From: a virus
Virus record (IMG/VR): IMGVR_UViG_3300043419_000243
Location: 1-28,521 of that record
Direction: 5' to 3' (one strand)
DNA: 28,521 bases
This document shows, in pieces, positions 3,602 to 28,521 of the stretch. A program made the translations under genes and the position numbers. A model generated the notes under the pieces. That model was not told the DNA's origin. It did no database searches and saw only the letters and a program-made list of their open reading frames with translations. Each line of letters opens with the position of its first letter. Position 1 is the stretch's first letter.

Positions 3602-3776
3602 TGATTACGAGTTAAAAATTAGCCTAGCATGGCTCAGCCAAGAAGAATTACATCTTAAAATTACAACAACAATTTTAGATGGTGTGTCAGGAACTACGCA
3701 ACACCGTAGCTACTTTGTTAGTCCAGAAGAAGCAGGGCGTATTGCTGACCACATTAACGATGTGCTATGCCGCTAA
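3582..3776 (+). CDS. Small orphan between terminase subunits
   Basis: A 64-residue protein of unknown function. ATG 3582 is preceded by a good AAGGAG (3570-3575), which lies inside the end of the small-terminase gene; the genes overlap by 20 nt and the large terminase gene overlaps its end by 10 nt. The protein has a predicted beta-rich core (ELHLKITTTILDGV, RSYFVSPEEA) and a C-terminal helix (GRIADHINDVL). Tight overlap at both ends suggests it is translated together with terminase, perhaps as a packaging accessory, but no motif proves this. Confidence 0.65.
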   Translation: MLIQKLDDYELKISLAWLSQEELHLKITTTILDGVSGTTQHRSYFVSPEEAGRIADHINDVLCR

Positions 3777-7216: not shown

Positions 7217-8038
7217 ATGGGTTACAATACAGCTTATGACTTAGCAGGCTTCATGGTCAACACCAAAGCAGCCGCAGTTTATGCCGCACAAGAATCTTCA
7301 TTGTTCTTGGGTGGTTTGACAATTCCACAAATTCAGGTTCCAGCAGGTTCCATCACAGCACAACTACCATTGTTGGGTGCTGTTACAGCACAGAAGTTGA
7401 CAAGTGCCAGCCACAACGTTGATGACTTCAACGCATTAGGCGTTACATCAGAATCTAAAACAATCACAGCAAACATTTATGCCGCACGTGATGTTGTTCG
7501 TGATTTAGGTGGCATTGACCCTAACGAATTAGGTCGTGTTTTAGGCAACAGCGTAAGTGCAGCCTTTGACAAAGATGTTATCGCCGCAATGAGCGGTTTG
7601 ACAGCAAGTGCTGACACAGGCACATTGACATTGAACGCAATCTTTGATGCAGTTGCACAAATCCGTGGTGCTGGTGAAACTGGTCAATTGATTGGTGTTC
7701 TAGGCACAGTTGCTGCCGCTGAATTGATGAAAGTTATTGGTAGCACAGCTTACGCTGGTGGTGCAATGCAAAATGAAGCAATGGCAAACGGTTTCGTTGG
7801 TCAAGTTGCTGGTGTTCGCTTCTATCAGTCAGCCTTCGCTACAGCCACTATCTCTGGCGTAACTGGTTTCAAAGGTGCTATCTTTGGTCAAGACGCAATG
7901 CGTATCGCTATGTTCAAGAATGTTGACTTAGAAGTTCAACGCCGTGCAGCCGCTGTTGGTAACGACATCGTTGCTAGCCTACACGCTGGTGTTGGTTTGG
8001 TTAATGCGGCCACTGGTGTTAAGTTGGTTGACGCTTAA
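7217..8038 (+). CDS. Major capsid protein
   Basis: A 273-residue protein after the scaffold gene, the expected place for the major head protein. It is rich in Ala, Gly and Val with few Cys or Trp, as in HK97-fold coats. It has an extended N-terminus (TAYDLAGFMVNTKAAAVYAA), a beta-rich region with a possible E-loop (IPQIQVPAGSITAQLPLLGA), a long helix (DPNELGRVLGNSVSAAFDKD) and a C-terminal region with LEVQRRAAAVGNDIVASLHA, similar to the closing strands and helix of coat proteins from other small phages. Codon choice is more uniform than in neighbours, consistent with high expression. AAAAGGTAA precedes ATG 7217. The assignment rests on position and composition more than on a diagnostic motif. 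Confidence 0.85.
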   Translation: MGYNTAYDLAGFMVNTKAAAVYAAQESSLFLGGLTIPQIQVPAGSITAQLPLLGAVTAQKLTSASHNVDDFNALGVTSESKTITANIYAARDVVRDLGGIDPNELGRVLGNSVSAAFDKDVIAAMSGLTASADTGTLTLNAIFDAVAQIRGAGETGQLIGVLGTVAAAELMKVIGSTAYAGGAMQNEAMANGFVGQVAGVRFYQSAFATATISGVTGFKGAIFGQDAMRIAMFKNVDLEVQRRAAAVGNDIVASLHAGVGLVNAATGVKLVDA

Positions 8039-20001: not shown

Positions 20002-23000
20002 ATGCCTACTGATATCACTGTAACTGAATTGAAAGAAACAGTAACAGTAACAGGAGGCACCACTTCTATTACTGTCACTGGTGATTCCGCAACCGTAAGT
20101 GTTGCAACTACAACTCAACCTGTAAGTGTTGTTCAAGAAACTTCAGCATTTACAATTAATACCGTTGCCAACAAAGCAGACATTGGTTTAGGCAATGTTG
20201 ATGATACCAGCGATGCCAACAAGCCTGTTAGTAGTGCAACACAAACAGCATTGGACGCTAAACTAAACAAGAATGGTGGCACAATGACTGGTGCTTTGAC
20301 TCTTGCCAGTGATCCAACACAAAACTTACAAGCCGCAACAAAAGGTTATGTTGACAGCCAAGTAAATGCTGTGCCTGTTATCTTGACAACTGATGATGTA
20401 GCAGAAGGTGAGATCAATCTATACTACACAGCCAATCGTGTTAATAGTGCCTTTGACACACGTTTAGCAACTAAGAGCACAACCAACTTAACAGAAGGCA
20501 GTAATTTATATCATACAACGGCTCGTGCTCGCAGTAGTATTAGTGCTACAGGTAGCATTGCTTACAATTCAACAACTGGTGTTATTTCTTATACTGGTGG
20601 TAGCAATCCAACCAACACAGATGAATTACCAGAAGGCACCACAAACAAATACTATACTGACTCAAGAGTCAATAGTGCGTTTGACACACGCCTTGCTACT
20701 AAGACAACCTCAAACTTAAATGAAGGCACTAATCTTTATTACACTAGCAGTCGTGCTAACACTGACTTTGACACTAGATTGGCTACAAAAAGCACAACAA
20801 ACTTGGCTGAAGGAACTAATCTATATTACACTAGTGCTCGTAGCAATAGTGATTTTGATGGCAGACTAGCAACTAAGTCAACTACAAATCTTACTGAAGG
20901 TAGCAATCTATATTACACAACAGCCCGTGCTAGAAGTGCTGTCAGTGGTAGCACAGGTATCACTTATACTGAAAGCACAGGTGCTATTGCTGTTGATAGC
21001 ACAATTGCAACAAAGACTTATGCTGACTCAGCGGCAGCAAGTGCGGCAGCAGCCATTGTTGATTCAAGTCCTGCTACATTGGATACATTAAATGAATTGG
21101 CTGCGGCTCTTGGTGATGATCCAAACTTTGCTACAACTGTTTCTACAGCATTGGGCAATAAGTTAGATGCGGCTGGCTTTAGTAGTGCTTTTGATGGTCA
21201 ACTTGCTGGTAAAACTACAACAAATGTAGCTGAAGGTAGTAATCTATATTACACAGATGCTAGAGCCAGAGCCGCCATTAGTGCCACTGGTTCTATTTCA
21301 TACAACAGTACTACTGGTGTAATAAGTTATACACAACCTTCATACGCAACAGTGGCCTCAACTGGTGCCTACAGTGATTTAACTGGTAAGCCAACATTGT
21401 TCTCAGGTGCTTATGCTGACCTAAGTGGTAAGCCTACATTGTTTGATGGTGCGTATTCAAGCCTAAGTGGTAAGCCTACATTGTTCAGTGGCTCTTACAC
21501 TGACTTAACAAACAAGCCTACATTGTTTTCAGGTGCGTATGCGGACTTAACAAACAAGCCTACATTGTTCTCAGGTGCATACGCAGACCTAACAGGCAAA
21601 CCAACAGCATTAAGTTCATTTACTAATGACACAAATTACATTACCACTTCAGGTGCTCGTAGTGCGTTAAGTGCTGGCACAGGTGTTTCTTACAATAGTT
21701 CTACTGGTGCCATTAGCATTGGTCAAGCAGTTGGCACAACAGACAATCCAACCTTTGGCACAGTCACAGCAAACTTAACAGATGGTAGTAAGGTGCTTGG
21801 TTCATTACAAGCAACAACAAACACTTCATACACATTTCCACCTGTTGCGTTGAATACAATTACAAACAACAACGGTTTGGATGCGGCATCAAGTATGAGC
21901 AGTGGTTCAAGTCTTGGCTTAGGTGCTCAAGGACAGTTCACACATTATTTTGGTGATACATTTGCTGGTGGTAATACAACTGCGGTGTTCTCATTTAAAA
22001 CAGCAAACGGCAACTCTGCAAGTAGTGGCACAATTCCTTTTACTGGTGTAGCAGTTTCTACTCCAAGTGCTGTTACAAGTGCTAACACTATTGGTGGCTT
22101 AAACTTTAACGGCTACGCAACAACGGGCTTTACAGATTACATTGGCACACAAAATCAAGGTGGTGGTAGTAATGCTATTCATGCTGGACAGATTCAATTT
22201 GCCCCCACTGAAACATTTGCTGATGGCACATTGACAATTTCAGGTGCTACTATTACAGCAGTAAGTCGTCTTAATGTTACGCAAACAGTTACGGCAGTTG
22301 GTGGCACAAGAGGCCAACTTACCATTCCAAGCACACTGGCTGGCGTAGGTCAAGCAGTTATTGTTACAGGAACTGACACAAATAATGTTGGTATTGCTCC
22401 AGGCACATATTACATTGTTGCTAACAACGGTGGTGCAAGCAACTCAACACAAATTACATTGGGCACAAGTCCAGGCGGTGCTCCAATTACAACAACAGCG
22501 GGCACACCAACTGGTTTGACATTTACACGCCAAATGATTATTGTCACATACTCAGCACAAAGCAACATACCATTTGGACAAAATGCTAAAGTAACAATCA
22601 GTGGTTTTACTAACGTCACTAGCGGCACTTATATGTTGATTGGTGCTGGTACTACAACAACAGCAAACATTGGTGCTCCTTCAAGTGCCGCACCAAGTTT
22701 AAGTGGTAGCCAAAGCATAAGTTGCCCTACTATTACAGCAGGTGCCGCACAGTTGCGTGTTCGTGCTTTCCCAGCGGCAACTCCGTTAAACTCAGGTAAT
22801 CGTGTTGATTTAATTAATCATTCTGCGGCAAGTGCTACATATCGCACAGACTCATTTGTTATTGCAGGTGGTGCGTATGGCAACACAAGTGCCGCAAGGG
22901 TAACAGTTGATTCTGCTAAAGCAACATTTGGATTGCCAGTGGCATATCCAAGTTATACAACAACCACAAGAAATGCGTTAACGCCTGCGGCTGGTTGGGT

Positions 23001-23149: not shown

Positions 23150-23273
23150 CATTGCAGACATTGTTATTGATCCAGAAATATTGAAGGTAAAACAAAAATG
23201 CAACCAACTGATACGGGCGTTAAGAAACGCAGAACTAGAAGAGATCCTGCAACGACAGGCAGCAAAGAAATGA
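23100..23273 (+). CDS. 57-residue ORF overlapping the micropeptide and membrane protein
   Basis: GTG 23100 to TGA 23271-23273 encodes 57 residues that look protein-like: a strand (KRIVVVVHPKNNIADIVIDP) and a charged helix (LIRALRNAELEEILQRQAAKK). A possible Shine-Dalgarno AGAGGA (23084-23089) lies 10 nt upstream, inside the micropeptide gene. Its stop overlaps ATG 23270 of the next frame as ATGA, typical of coupled phage genes. Against it are the GTG start and overlap with other frames on both sides. No family is recognised. Confidence 0.4.
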   Translation: MAQEQKRIVVVVHPKNNIADIVIDPEILKVKQKCNQLIRALRNAELEEILQRQAAKK

Positions 23274-23557
23274 CACAGATAGATGAAACTAGTGCAAGAC
23301 TTAATACCCACGAGGCTGTATGCAGTGAGCGTTTTTTAGGTTTGGATATTAAAATGAAAAACATTGAAGATCGTTTAGACAAATTAGAAACAACTGTAAA
23401 AGAACTTAGTTCAGGCACAGCAAAAGGTTTTAGTGAAATCAAAGAACTTATTGAGAAACGCAATAACTCAAGCCACACCGCTATCATTACAGCGGCAGGA
23501 TCAGTGATTGTGGCTCTTATAGCTTTCCTTGGTTATCTAATCACTCACATAAAATAA
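23198..23557 (+). CDS. Coiled-coil, single-TM membrane protein (XhlA/spanin-like)
   Basis: A 119-residue protein from ATG 23198 (AAGG 10 nt upstream), or 95 residues from ATG 23270, which is coupled as ATGA to the overlapping ORF. It has an Arg/Lys-rich N-terminus (KKRRTRRD, only in the long form), a coiled coil (IKMKNIEDRLDKLETTVKEL) and one C-terminal transmembrane helix (TAAGSVIVALIAFLGYLI, about 98-115 of the long form) ending in basic residues. This layout matches XhlA-type accessory lysis proteins or some inner-membrane spanins. It lies just before the holin and so belongs to the lysis cassette. Which start is used cannot be decided from sequence. Confidence 0.65.
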   Translation: MQPTDTGVKKRRTRRDPATTGSKEMTQIDETSARLNTHEAVCSERFLGLDIKMKNIEDRLDKLETTVKELSSGTAKGFSEIKELIEKRNNSSHTAIITAAGSVIVALIAFLGYLITHIK

Positions 23558-23558
23558 T

Positions 23559-24005
23559 ATGCCAAAACTTGACAACTTCTTTAACACTGATGTCTTAGGC
23601 GAAATGAGTCCTGGGGCACAACGCAGTATTGATGCCAAGGTAGCGGCTGGAGGTTGGTCAAGTGCTGATGAAGCCGCTAAGACCAAAGCAGTGGCAGATG
23701 CGGCAGCACAGGTAGCAGTCCAAGGTGCCACTAACACTCTTGAAACTGATGACAAGTTTGGCAACTTTATTAACAGTAGATGGAGACCCATGATGGCGTT
23801 CATCTATATGATTACTTGTGCCACAGACTTCGTAATATTCCCAGTGCTATGGAGTGTATTACAAGCAGTACAAGGTGGGCAAGTAACAAGCCAATGGAGT
23901 CCGTTGACATTACAAGGTGCGGGCCTGTATCACATAGCAATGGGTGCTGTGCTTGGACTTGCCGCATATGGTCGTAGTCAAGAAAAGATAGCAGGCAAAT
24001 CCTGA
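23559..24005 (+). CDS. Holin of the GTA 3-TM type
   Basis: A 148-residue protein that probably permeabilises the inner membrane at lysis. An Ala-rich soluble N-terminus (SSADEAAKTKAVADAAAQVA) leads to NSRWRPMMAFIYMITCATDF (72-91), the RP(L/M)MA...D(F) signature of GTA-type holins, with a first membrane region about 77-103. A second, about 117-137, is PLTLQGAGLYHIAMGAVLGL, also family-typical, ending in the conserved QEKI. It begins 1 bp after the coiled-coil gene. The expected third segment is short. No endolysin gene lies next to it, which is unusual. Confidence 0.75.
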   Translation: MPKLDNFFNTDVLGEMSPGAQRSIDAKVAAGGWSSADEAAKTKAVADAAAQVAVQGATNTLETDDKFGNFINSRWRPMMAFIYMITCATDFVIFPVLWSVLQAVQGGQVTSQWSPLTLQGAGLYHIAMGAVLGLAAYGRSQEKIAGKS

Positions 24006-24695: not shown

Positions 24696-24980
24696 ATGGC
24701 AAGGCCATCACCAACTGTATTATTACAGCACATTTACGAAGATGAACGAGCATTAGAAATATGTGAAGCAGATTTCACTTGGGGAGTTTATTATAAAGGC
24801 AAACCAATTGCAATTAAAAACATTCCCAGCGTTGAACATCCATATCCTGGGCCAAAATATCCGCGTGTGAACTTTCAAAACTTGGCTCACGCATTACGCT
24901 TGCGGGACAAGATGAACACTTTGTTTAACACAGAAGATTTTAGTGTAGTACGAATGGAAGCTGGTTACACAATGAAGTAG
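24696..24980 (+). CDS. Hypothetical protein, 94 residues
   Basis: A soluble 94-residue protein of unknown function, with a Pro/Tyr-rich middle (SVEHPYPGPKYPRVNFQNLA) followed by a helix (HALRLRDKMNTLFNT). ATG 24696 lies one base after the upstream stop, with TAGGAG about 7 nt upstream, so it is coupled to the helix-turn-helix gene. The two form a separate unit between the late terminator and the structured intergenic region. Confidence 0.6.
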   Translation: MARPSPTVLLQHIYEDERALEICEADFTWGVYYKGKPIAIKNIPSVEHPYPGPKYPRVNFQNLAHALRLRDKMNTLFNTEDFSVVRMEAGYTMK

Positions 24981-24986
24981 CCATAA

Positions 24987-25158
24987 GAAAAGGACCAAGT
25001 TGTATAACAAACGTTATACTGTGCCCCAACAGCACCTTGATCCTCTTCCCTGGTTTGGCGTAATTAGGATGGCGTCCCAATTACAATTAAATTAAATGAC
25101 AAACAAGCGACGAGATATATACTCACCAAACCAGTAGCAAGCAATATGCTTTGCTTGC
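24987..25158 (-). ncRNA. Putative structured minus-strand RNA with three-way junction
   Basis: Read on the minus strand there are, in order: a perfect 8-bp hairpin (25158-25151/25144-25137); an 11-bp long-range helix (25134-25124/25060-25050) enclosing a 9-bp hairpin with a CGCCA loop (25083-25061); and a three-way junction made of a 13-bp helix (25048-25036/24999-24987) around a 4-bp/7-nt hairpin (25035-25021) and a perfect 7-bp hairpin (25019-25002). Gaps between elements are 0-2 nt. All four non-Watson-Crick positions (24990/25045, 24995/25040, 25066/25078, 25059/25125) are G.U on the minus strand but A.C on the plus strand. A U-rich end (CCTTTTCTT) follows the last helix. The RNA and its ends are inferred. 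Confidence 0.45.
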
Positions 25159-25161
25159 ATG

Positions 25162-25191
25162 TTTATATTTATACAACTTTCAAATACGCAA
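25162..25191 (-). promoter_or_regulatory. Weak candidate promoter for the minus-strand RNA
   Basis: On the minus strand TTGCGT (25191-25186) and TATAAA (25167-25162) are 18 bp apart; an overlapping TATAAATA lies at 25173-25166. Transcription would begin near 25155, just at the first hairpin of the putative RNA. The -35 is poor, so this is tentative. Confidence 0.25.
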
Positions 25192-25255: not shown

Positions 25256-25275
25256 ACTTGATCTATACATCAAGT
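25256..25275. promoter_or_regulatory. Operator-like palindrome over the early promoter
   Basis: ACTTGAT (25256-25262) and ATCAAGT (25269-25275) are perfect 7-bp arms with a 6-bp centre (CTATAC). The left arm includes most of the -35 and the right arm lies in the spacer, so a bound dimer would block RNA polymerase. The sequence binder is unknown; the helix-turn-helix protein at 24068 is one candidate. Confidence 0.5.
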
Positions 25276-25286
25276 ATAAGTATAAT
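25258..25286 (+). promoter_or_regulatory. Strong sigma70-like early promoter
   Basis: TTGATC (25258-25263) and a consensus TATAAT (25281-25286) are separated by exactly 17 bp. Transcription would begin near 25293, about 55 nt before ATG 25349, and could run through all small early genes, helicase and primase to the terminator at 2100. Confidence 0.65.
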
Positions 25287-25348
25287 ATACAATGTTATCG
25301 CCCAAACGATACCAATGTAGAAAGACAAACAAATGAAAGCGATATATT

Positions 25349-25789
25349 ATGGTAAACCACACAGAAGATTTTGCGAACTGGATTCAGTCCTGGTCCACTA
25401 GGCTGGAGAATGCCTACAACAGCGGCATTGATTATGAAGGATGGCCACGTTTCTTAGAAGCATTACAGCACTTTGAAAAGAACGGCTACTTTACTCCAGG
25501 TCAAATTGATTACTTTCTTAGACGCGATCCTCGTCTAGGCCACGGTAAGTTAAAAGATTACAACACATTCAAAGGCTACAATAGGAAATTAGGCAGTATT
25601 CTGCCTGCTCCTGTTGACGCAATAATTCATGGTAAGTTTGTAGCATGGACTACTCCTTATCAGAATATGCCTGACCTCACCAAGAGGCTGGCATCACAAG
25701 CACCTGGATGGGAATACAATCCCAGAACCAAGTCTTGGCAGGGAAAGAACCCTGTGGTCCAACAACGATTGACGGACATTTTTAATTAA
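25349..25789 (+). CDS. First early gene, orphan 146-residue protein
   Basis: The first gene after the early promoter. It is soluble, rich in Trp, Tyr and Phe (FANWIQSWSTRLENAYNSGI; FTPGQIDYFLRRDPRLG), and ends in WEYNPRTKSWQGKNPVVQQR. There is no membrane segment, metal motif or helix-turn-helix, and no known family. First early genes of small phages are often host-takeover or anti-defence proteins, so this is a candidate on position only. The ribosome-binding site for ATG 25349 is weak (GAAAG 25335-25339); ATG 25333 opens only a 22-codon frame. Confidence 0.65.
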   Translation: MVNHTEDFANWIQSWSTRLENAYNSGIDYEGWPRFLEALQHFEKNGYFTPGQIDYFLRRDPRLGHGKLKDYNTFKGYNRKLGSILPAPVDAIIHGKFVAWTTPYQNMPDLTKRLASQAPGWEYNPRTKSWQGKNPVVQQRLTDIFN

Positions 25790-26456: not shown

Positions 26457-26899
26457 AACAATACAAATATAGAGTTATGTCCTGGGCGTTTGTCCCAGAT
26501 AACAAAGATAGAAGATATTGGCCTGAAGGCGAATTGCGTGAAGTTAAACGCCGCCATTTTAAAAATGTTGAAAAAATGAACGAATATGTGTTCATGGAAC
26601 AACTACTAGGCAGAACTGTTGAAGTGATGGACATGGAACAATTTTATGAAAACTATCCTGACCAGCCAGATGCAATATTAACATACTATCGTCTTATGAA
26701 TCATAACCGCATTGAAGATGCCCGTAGATTTTTACGCGGAGAAATTGATACAGAACTCCATTTTGCTTTAGAAGATAGACCAGGTTCAGTTGGATTGGGT
26801 AGATTACGAACCGCATTAAAGAAAATGATGGGTGGTAATACTCTTTGCATAGAGCCAAAAGGTGTTGATAGTTATACAGCAGTGGAGTTTCAATTATGA
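26453..26899 (+). CDS. Orphan protein with helicase-like C-terminal tail
   Basis: A 148-residue protein directly upstream of the helicase and overlapping it by 4 nt (ATGA). The first about 115 residues (MKQYKYRVMSWAFVPDNKDR and on) match nothing I know. The last about 30 (RLRTALKKMMGGNTLCIEPK, then GVDSYTAVEFQL) look like the sensor-1 side of an SF3/DUF5906 helicase. They share nine identical residues (EPKGVDSYT) with the downstream helicase, encoded by 28 identical nucleotides. The tail thus seems derived from a helicase copy. It may be a recombination scar, a fused regulatory tail or, less likely, an assembly error. Confidence 0.65.
   Translation: MKQYKYRVMSWAFVPDNKDRRYWPEGELREVKRRHFKNVEKMNEYVFMEQLLGRTVEVMDMEQFYENYPDQPDAILTYYRLMNHNRIEDARRFLRGEIDTELHFALEDRPGSVGLGRLRTALKKMMGGNTLCIEPKGVDSYTAVEFQL
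26852..26879. repeat. 28-nt exact direct repeat, copy 1
   Basis: These 28 nt at the end of the orphan gene are identical to 27862-27889 inside the helicase gene and are read in the same frame in both (EPKGVDSYT). If a 3-nt gap is allowed, four more bases (TGGA) match afterwards. The copies are 1,010 bp apart. Confidence 0.85.
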
Positions 26900-28521
26900 A
26901 CGAAGAAGCAACATTAAATGAATCCACATTGAAGAACCAATATCTTTCAAAGATAAAGGAACTAAGAAATAAAATTGCTGATAAGACTAAGCTATTACAA
27001 ACAGAAACAGATGAACATGTAAGAGAGGCCTATGAAAAAACCATTACAACCAGCAATGAAGAACTAGAAGAAACACAAAAAGAGTTAAATGCGTTAAACG
27101 AAGAAAAGAATAAAACCATTAAAAAAGCTTTGGAAGATTTGATTCGTGGCACCAATAACAATGACAAGTTAAAGCGTGTGCATATTGCTTACATTGCTAC
27201 AGATGACAAGTATGTAATCATTAAAAACTATTCTAAAACTGACAAGCGTGTAAACATTCGTGAAAACAGTTTAACGGCATCTAAGATGGTTGGTATCTTA
27301 AACAACTTAATTGGTAAGCCTGGCTTTTTTGATACCTTCAGTGGGCAAGGCGGTGCAGATAGATTGCGAACAGCATTTGAACGTGCTGGTGCAAGTTATA
27401 TGATCCGCACTAGTAGTTTTGATGATCCAAAATGGGATGTCAAATATGTTTTTAATGCGTTACAGATTCAAAGGGAATTTTGGGCACCAATTGATCAAGG
27501 TGATGATTATGATCCTGCATTTGATGATCTAATGTATAGTTTAGGTGGTGGCAAAGATGAAAACATTGCACACTTAGAACAATGGGTACCTTACAAGTTT
27601 TTGTATCCTGAAAAACTTGTGTCTACACCAAATATAAACTTAACTGGTATCCCTGGTGGTAATGGTAAAGGTTTGTTTTGTAAGATCCTTAGTAGTGTGT
27701 TTACATTGTTAGGTGTAGGTTGGATTAAAGGTAAAAACTTAACAGGTGGCTTTAATGCAAACATGGAAGGTAAAGTTATCAATGTATTTGATGATGAAAA
27801 GAAAGATAAGTTTCCAAATGATGAACTAAAGCAAAATACTGGCAACGGCAATATTGTTGTTGAGCCAAAAGGTGTTGATAGTTATACAGTGGATGCTACC
27901 GCTAACATTTTGGTCATGGACAATACTGGATTAATTAAATTGGTAGGTGGTGGTTCTGGTGGTGAGGATAGACGTTGGAGTATTATTACAACTGAAATTT
28001 CACTATTGGACCACTTGATGCAAAAGTATACTTTGACAGCAGATCAAGCAAAAAAGAAGGCTGAAGATATGGCCGCTATATTTGAGGATCGTATTGCATG
28101 TGGTAAGTGGCTTGCGGCAATGATTAAAAAACATAGTGTAAGCACAATGTCTGTATTGCGTCCATTACACGGGCAAGATTATCAACGCAGACTTATTGAT
28201 CAACGTGATAACTGGATTGAGATATTTGAAAGAGTATTGCCCATTTTTGTGGACCAAAAAATCTTACCATTCAAGTTCTTAAAGGAAATTGTAGAAGCGG
28301 AAACTGGGGAAAAGATCAAGAAGCCAGCTACACTTAGCAGTAAGTTTGATGAGTTCTTAAGCAGAAACGGACACCGCAATGTAGAAAAGGTAGAAGGGCT
28401 TAGTGTTAAAATTATTCACAGCAAGTCACCTAGTTCACAAGAAAACTTGCGTGGTGCTGTTCGCAGACTTGATCCTAGTGTATCAACATTTGATTATGCT
28501 ATGATTAGTAATGGTTTGTAC
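26896..28521 (+). CDS. SF3-type (DUF5906-like) replicative helicase, N-terminal part
   Basis: The first 542 codons of a 634-codon product; the rest continues at 2-406 through the circular junction. It probably unwinds DNA ahead of the primer made by the adjacent primase. The N-terminus (about 10-85) is a charged coiled coil. Walker A is GIPGGNGKG (251-259, Lys258). The Walker-B-like strand is VINVFDDE (294-301). IVVEPKGVDSY (320-330) with the strand ANILVMDNTG (336-345) takes the sensor-1 position, and a GGEDRRW segment (355-361) may supply the arginine finger. This order is typical of SF3/DUF5906 phage primase-helicases. ATG 26896 overlaps the upstream stop as ATGA, with GGAG 26884-26887 upstream. 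Confidence 0.85.
   Translation, partial: MNEEATLNESTLKNQYLSKIKELRNKIADKTKLLQTETDEHVREAYEKTITTSNEELEETQKELNALNEEKNKTIKKALEDLIRGTNNNDKLKRVHIAYIATDDKYVIIKNYSKTDKRVNIRENSLTASKMVGILNNLIGKPGFFDTFSGQGGADRLRTAFERAGASYMIRTSSFDDPKWDVKYVFNALQIQREFWAPIDQGDDYDPAFDDLMYSLGGGKDENIAHLEQWVPYKFLYPEKLVSTPNINLTGIPGGNGKGLFCKILSSVFTLLGVGWIKGKNLTGGFNANMEGKVINVFDDEKKDKFPNDELKQNTGNGNIVVEPKGVDSYTVDATANILVMDNTGLIKLVGGGSGGEDRRWSIITTEISLLDHLMQKYTLTADQAKKKAEDMAAIFEDRIACGKWLAAMIKKHSVSTMSVLRPLHGQDYQRRLIDQRDNWIEIFERVLPIFVDQKILPFKFLKEIVEAETGEKIKKPATLSSKFDEFLSRNGHRNVEKVEGLSVKIIHSKSPSSQENLRGAVRRLDPSVSTFDYAMISNGLY
27862..27889. repeat. 28-nt exact direct repeat, copy 2
   Basis: Second copy of the 28-nt repeat first seen at 26852-26879. 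Here it encodes EPKGVDSYT at helicase residues 323-331, at the sensor-1 side of the ATPase, where the sequence is functionally constrained. Confidence 0.85.
28395..28521 (+). repeat. 127-bp terminal direct repeat (contig overlap)
   Basis: Bases 28395-28521 are identical to 1-127. A length of exactly 127 equals a common maximum assembly k-mer, so this is more likely the assembler's closure of a circular or circularly permuted molecule than a real phage terminal repeat. The helicase frame continues intact across it. Confidence 0.9.

Follow-up and report, generated by a model that had tools for sequence, protein, structure and literature searches.

The analyzed stretch of DNA, which is called the window throughout (28,521 nucleotides), is a complete, circularly closed phage genome of about 28.4 kb, and its ends of 127 bases are identical (1-127 and 28395-28521). 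The late genes are located on the plus strand, run from tail to lysis, and end at position 24980; two holin-like genes at 23198-24005 are the lysis genes. The next block of plus-strand genes begins at 25349 and reaches, across the circle, a gene resembling a primase/helicase (DUF5906) and another primase-like gene. The late and the early genes are separated by a gap of 368 bases, and it is this gap that harbors the structured RNA element described below. The genome has an ordinary large terminase (Terminase_6N, phrog_2) and a portal gene. The scans made of the proteins of this lineage gave no match to an integrase or a repressor, a search of the GTDB species genomes by terminase found no relative, and BLASTN of the junction against the phage collection gave no match. 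The terminases of the nearest cultured phages, HTVC026P and DSL-LC06, are only about 42% identical.

Several other features of the genome were noted. The gene that ends just before the element (24696-24980) encodes a protein of 94 aa that has no Pfam or PHROG match; members of its family occur in at least 567 viral contig stretches; in the related contig L045, a tRNA gene (7373-7443, plus strand) lies directly 3′ of the gene for the 94-aa protein, on the late side of the junction. The presumed tail-fiber gene (1021 aa) contains diverged tandem repeats of 87 and 42 bases (20445-21614). An exact repeat of 28 nt (GAGCCAAAAGGTGTTGATAGTTATACAG) is present in frame in two different genes, at 26852-26879 and 27862-27889, and encodes EPKGVDSYT in both.

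In the gap, an antisense small RNA of about 175 nt is predicted on the minus strand (24985-25160), with its 5′ end near 25160 and its 3′ end near 24985. The prediction is based on the z-score of the fold, on 11 covarying pairs, and on the same architecture in relatives. The RNA is predicted to begin with a 5′ hairpin of 8 bp (25137-25158), the loop of which reads AGCAAUC, AGCAAUA, or UGCAAUG in relatives that otherwise differ in sequence. It is followed by a long-range helix, P1, formed by the 5′ strand CUGGUUUGGUG (25124-25134) and the 3′ strand CGCCAAACCAG (25050-25060), in which compensatory and G.U changes were found at three pairs. P1 encloses a single-stranded stretch (25085-25123) and an inner hairpin (GUAAUUGGG...CCUAAUUAC, 25060-25084), in which both sides have changed at 4 of 10 pairs. 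The 3′ part (24985-25049), a three-way junction with an outer helix and a U-tract, is a probable intrinsic terminator, as indicated by the fold, the covariation, and the constancy of the U-tract. The junction contains a hairpin of 4-5 bp with the loop UGUUGGG (25021-25035) and a 7-bp hairpin (25002-25019).

Both strands of the region 24980-25170 were folded in silico and compared with shuffled sequences. The minus strand reached -69.9 kcal/mol (z -7.57), and none of 200 dinucleotide shuffles equalled this value. The fold of the plus strand was weaker (-51.7 kcal/mol, z -4.66). G.U pairs accounted for 7 of 59 pairs in the minus-strand fold versus 1 of 52 in the plus-strand fold. A first-pass annotation had described six stems on the minus strand and a G.U bias toward this strand; the bias was confirmed, and all six stems, including the 8-bp hairpin, P1, the inner hairpin, and the three-way junction, were present in the predicted fold.

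Patterns drawn from the RNA led to homologues in four related phages (L015, L016/L018, L019, and L020/L022). L017, L021, and L023-L026 were chance matches to the DNA patterns and were set aside on reading the DNA. The window RNA and its homologues were aligned (alignment A2), and this alignment was used to quantify covariation. The pairs were kept in 98.4% of the cells. Both sides had changed at 11 of the 50 pairs, compared with a mean of 4.3 after shuffling, and none of 500 shuffles was as high. When the partners were slid as a control, pairing fell to 34-50%. The changes on both sides occur in five of the six helices; in the junction helix of L020, GGAUC/GGUCC has become GGAAC/GUUCC. The claim that a phage with plus-strand genes encodes a structured RNA on its minus strand was thus supported by the compensatory changes in related phages as well as by minus-strand folding, and contrary evidence was not encountered. 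The layout of the six stems had to be corrected at one point. Some of the outermost pairs of the helix that had been given as 13 bp long (GGAAG/UUUUC) are broken in relatives. Because the UUUUC run is constant while its pairing partner changes, an intrinsic-terminator U-tract is the better interpretation of this run.

A candidate -10 element (TATAAATA, 25166-25173, minus strand) is present directly upstream of the RNA, and most members have TAAATA or a near match at this site. L045 and L056 have a full TTGACA-N18-TAAATA upstream of the RNA, and L130 has TTGACA-N17-CATAAT; in the window the -10 element is present and the -35 box is poor. The RNA gene would thus form its own transcription unit, with a promoter and an intrinsic terminator. 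On the plus strand, the putative early promoter TTGATC-N17-TATAAT (25258-25286) agrees with the consensus at 10 of 12 positions, and its TATAAT is conserved in L016, L019, and L022. Because this promoter points in the opposite direction, the early transcript would not overlap the RNA gene. Upstream of the first early gene of L022 (reverse strand), the early promoter and the leader occur as a tandem duplication that includes the antisense target.

RNAs of the same architecture were found at the same late/early junction in six more contigs (L002, L045, L056, L127, L128, and L130), and their sequences are nearly unrelated to that of the window. The usual plan consists of a 5′ hairpin, a long-range helix around a single-stranded stretch and a hairpin, and a forked helix with a terminal U-tract. 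A covariance model (R1) built from the window RNA and its sequence homologues yielded no further members in 85 loci and left the six contigs unmatched. Because R1 gave no further members, an architecture-based search was undertaken, using a descriptor that comprised a hairpin with a GCAAU loop, a spacer of 1-2, a helix of at least 7 bp, and a U-tract. This descriptor recovered the same plan in L056, L127, L128, and L130; L045 has the plan with an imperfect hairpin. The RNA of L002 has a 9-bp helix around a single-stranded stretch and an 8-bp hairpin, followed by a forked helix and UUUUCC, without sequence similarity. Compared with the window and L002, the hairpin and the stretch have exchanged places within the long-range helix of L045, L056, L127, L128, and L130. 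The minus-strand fold surpassed the plus-strand fold in 11 of 11 RNAs; the fold z-scores of L127 and L128 are weak. The kinship of the six RNAs rests on their position, architecture, GCAAU loop (absent from L002), and target match, from which we infer common descent.

The descriptor had no match in L027-L044 and L176-L250, loci that have no more than a holin or gp94 relative, and the matches in L115 and L151 were set aside. In the junction regions of L112, L116, L120, L121, and L133, a minus-strand RNA of this type was not clearly recognizable. A second structured element, located on the plus strand, was observed in the same lineage (L114:274-460, L116:4390-4585, and L112:5621-5815). It has TAAATA or TAAGTA, a 5′ hairpin with the loop UGCAAYG, a long-range helix, and the conserved blocks CCCGUCU..AGUC..AGU..CCUACGA and CCCAGGACCA, and the changes between L114 and L116 look compensatory. 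L130 has, besides the minus-strand RNA at 2074, a plus-strand hairpin at 3750 with the loop UGCAACG, which is located behind TAAATA and close to a primase-like gene. Judging from these cases, a hairpin with a GCAAY loop seems to be a recurrent 5′ end of transcripts in the lineage.

The proposed target of the RNA is the first early gene of the window (25349-25789, plus strand), an ORF of 146 aa. The protein has no Pfam or PHROG match, and a search with it found no relatives. The first early genes of L015, L016, L019, L020, L002, L127, and L128 form one family with products of 133-138 aa (alignment A6), and all loci at which such a protein was found (10 of 10) come from RNA-carrying phages. The structural model of this family is of moderate confidence (pLDDT 69) and has the strand order of an OB-fold. 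Many of its best matches among solved structures are OB-fold proteins, including single-stranded DNA-binding proteins, with no match below an E-value of 0.001. According to the model, the target in the relatives is probably an OB-fold protein. This first early protein of the relatives (L118:4433-4846), with its predicted OB-fold-like strand order, has a conserved DLF at the C-terminus and is perhaps a single-stranded DNA-binding protein. The first early gene of the window differs from the family of the relatives, and the window RNA matches this gene instead. In L015, the end of the first early gene overlaps the start of the primase gene. The window also contains an ORF of 22 aa (25333-25401, plus strand), which starts 16 bases before the first early gene and overlaps it. 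Because its start lies between the two segments of the antisense target, it could encode a leader peptide.

The stretch at 25085-25123 is the sole part of the RNA with clear target-specific complementarity. It can base-pair with the ribosome-binding region of the first early gene, and its sequence differs by phage type. In the window, segment 1 (UUGUUUGUC, 25098-25106) can pair with GACAAACAA in the mRNA (25324-25332), which is the best helix between the whole RNA and the leader, and segment 2 (GUCGCUU, 25105-25111) can pair with AAGCGAU (25337-25343), which is the second-best helix. Both segments have a predicted unpaired probability of 0.80-0.83. For the complete target site around the ribosome-binding region (GACAAACAA ... 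AAGCGAU, 25324-25343, plus strand), a duplex of -19.4 kcal/mol was calculated, and 42 of the 5653 remaining plus-strand segments of the genome give an equally good one. In L015, UAUAUCUUCUUGUGUG matches CACACAAGGAGAUAUA with 16 contiguous pairs, including one G.U, that span the Shine-Dalgarno sequence AAGGAG and stop just 5′ of the AUG. The respective partners are UAAGUUUCCU and AGGAAACUUA in L128 and L127, UUGUUGGUAA and UUACCAACAA plus GUCGCUU and GAGCGAU in L016, CUCCGUU and AACGGAG in L002, CUCUAACU and GGUUAGAG in L056, and AAGUUCUC and GAGAACUU in L130.

The specificity of the matching was analyzed by permuting seven distinct RNA-target pairs, several of which share ancestry, with stretch boundaries picked from the predicted folds. 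The cognate assignment ranked first of 5040 by the energy of the gapless contiguous helix and fourth of 5040 by RNAduplex. No specificity was seen in the controls, which ranked 1378 (reversed stretch), 3197 (RNA 3′ of the stretch), and 4435 (plus-strand sequence) of 5040. The RNA 5′ of the stretch had a slight specificity (rank 100 of 5040), which is probably owed to L002; in this phage the single best helix between RNA and leader lies mostly outside the stretch. When the whole RNA was scanned without preselection, the best helix with the leader was located inside the stretch in 5 of the 7 phages and overlapped it in L128. Unconstrained RNAduplex calculations with the full RNA and the leader produced over-long duplexes, and the stretch-based tests were used instead.

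The genome-wide comparison did not yield uniform values. No other plus-strand segment of 40 nt equalled the cognate ribosome-binding region in L015, L127, and L128. In the window, the cognate region belonged to the best 0.7% of segments; for L002 and L056 the figure was 1.5% and for L016 and L130 roughly 6%, and some of these values improve if the segment may shift. Taken singly, the matches of L016, L002, and L130 are only moderately above chance (shuffle p of 0.13-0.23 for L002). The pairing segments are predicted to be unpaired to about 80% or more in the window and L002, almost fully in L045/L056, and to 39% in L015, the stretch of which is partly paired in the predicted RNA.

A second contact is suggested by the 5′ hairpin of the early transcript (25296-25311, plus strand), the loop of which, CCCAAA, is a possible kissing partner of the junction loop UGUUGGG. 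Such an interaction would comprise 5-7 bp in the window, L015, L016, L002, and L056, and none was found in L128 and L130. Of 120 permutations, 4 were as good, and the kissing contact is thus only suggestive.

Taken together, the element is most likely a phage-encoded antisense RNA that represses the early operon in trans by preventing translation of its first gene. This reading is favored because position, covariation, and matching are combined. From the computed results, i.e., the minus-strand fold, the covariation, the architecture that is kept without sequence, and the phage-by-phage matching of stretch and target, we infer the following course of events. At the late/early junction, minus-strand transcription of the RNA would start at its own promoter, diverge from that of the early operon, and stop at its intrinsic terminator. 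The conserved scaffold would display a single-stranded stretch of 14-40 nt, and this stretch would pair with the leader and the ribosome-binding region of the first early mRNA (about -26 to +3, counted from the start codon), so that ribosome loading would be blocked. Repression rather than activation is assumed because of the site of pairing. The downstream replication genes may also be lowered through translational coupling; in L015, the first early gene overlaps that of the primase. Pairing might be started by the contact between the loop of the three-way junction and the 5′ hairpin loop of the early mRNA. The purpose could be to turn down the early and replication genes or to exclude a second infecting phage of the same type. 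A regulator had been among the functions listed by the first-pass annotation, and the target-specific complementarity argues for it; the specific form, an antisense RNA against a ribosome-binding region, had not been proposed.

Three other explanations were considered. The matching segments are also short plus-strand direct repeats that flank divergent promoters, and they might serve as two binding sites (operators or iterons) of a phage repressor or replication initiator, with the RNA complementarity as a by-product. We regard this as unlikely, since the copies of every phage lie in the unpaired loop of a covarying RNA and at the ribosome-binding region (about -26 to +3), the two non-Watson-Crick positions in the contiguous matches (L015 and L056) are G.U-compatible in RNA, and the conserved scaffold and the minus-strand bias would be left unaccounted for. 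A role solely in terminating transcription or insulating the late operon from the early one, through hairpins on both strands, is very unlikely. A terminator would need neither a scaffold of 175 nt with a compensated long-range helix nor a stretch that tracks the ribosome-binding region of the early gene, and L016 has, next to the element, a separate terminator-like hairpin on the plus strand, although the location between the operons, the U-tract at the end, and the folding of both strands beyond shuffled sequences would all fit.

The antisense match would be incidental if the structured RNA worked through a protein, as a host-factor decoy or a packaging RNA, and this we consider highly improbable. 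The 5′ hairpin loop (A/U)GCAAU(C/G) is kept across otherwise unrelated RNAs, like a protein-binding site, and the three-way junction is reminiscent of the phi29 packaging RNA, but the sequences of the junction vary across the lineage, the large terminase and the portal of the phage are of the ordinary kind, an Rfam match is absent, and the antisense statistics would not be accounted for. Nothing was found that supports either of the two other functions offered by the first-pass annotation, packaging RNA and host-factor decoy.

Antisense control of phage genes is documented chiefly in a handful of model phages. What is new here is the probable function of the element, which, judging from its sequence matches, would be directed as an antisense RNA against the ribosome-binding region of the first early mRNA. 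An uncultured phage lineage would thus keep an RNA scaffold while the sequence of the RNA and its target change jointly, and would offer natural, directly testable cases of RNA-target coevolution. Covariance-model searches miss such RNAs, since nothing but the architecture is conserved. A possible search route is to look for structured RNAs opposite early operons and to compare them with the neighboring ribosome-binding site. Should related phages indeed be excluded, this would be an immunity system consisting only of RNA. More tentatively, and with clearly less confidence than the antisense function itself, the RNA may be a retargetable immunity or timing device of the whole lineage. Any change in the early gene or in its ribosome-binding region would then be followed by a rewriting of the antisense part, and each phage type would silence only its own kind (superinfection exclusion or copy control) without a repressor protein.

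The packaging RNA of phi29 has a similar length and contains a three-way junction. Neither a sequence or structure match to this family (Rfam scans) nor a packaging ATPase of the phi29 type was found; the phage has an ordinary large terminase instead, and an antisense function is indicated for its RNA. More generally, Rfam gave no covariance-model match at the gathering score for the window (including c4, if represented there) or for the RNAs of the relatives that were searched. The translation of replication genes is controlled by antisense RNAs in plasmids, e.g., by CopA of R1, and the antisense RNAs of plasmid replication control are cis-encoded and fully complementary to their targets. Antisense control of replication-gene translation is likewise described for RNAII of pMV158 (PMC4485353). 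The control of the translation of replication genes would be shared with these RNAs; in contrast to them, the RNA described here combines a conserved scaffold with a changeable antisense segment and is encoded elsewhere than its target.

Among phage RNAs, OOP of lambda is an antisense RNA that acts on a phage gene, and its promoter also matters for DNA replication (PMC12197685). OOP is a small regulatory antisense RNA as well, but it has 77 nt, is cis-encoded against cII, and leads to decay of the cII mRNA via RNase III. The sar RNA of P22 pairs with a phage mRNA and hinders the initiation of translation (PMC12197685), which would also be the mode of action of the RNA described here. However, sar is much shorter (68/69 nt) and has an antirepressor target, whereas here the complementary segments are short and scattered, with no overlap between the RNA gene and the target. 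The c4 RNA of the phages P1 and P7 is structured, its loops pair around the ribosome-binding site of a phage mRNA, and its specificity underlies P1/P7 heteroimmunity (PMC12197685). The likeness to c4 lies in a structured phage RNA that would pair with the ribosome-binding region of a phage mRNA. The target of c4 is the antirepressor gene ant; the RNA described here, of about 175 nt, has its own putative divergent promoter and terminator, would be directed against the first early gene, and matches no Rfam family. It resembles the functional class of sar and c4 in that its gene (24985-25160, minus strand) is distinct from the target mRNA and in that it can pair with a phage mRNA at the ribosome-binding region. 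The best reading is thus that the antisense RNA belongs to no known RNA family yet works like sar and c4, and by analogy the mechanistically nearest system would be c4 of P1/P7, followed by sar of P22 (PMC12197685).
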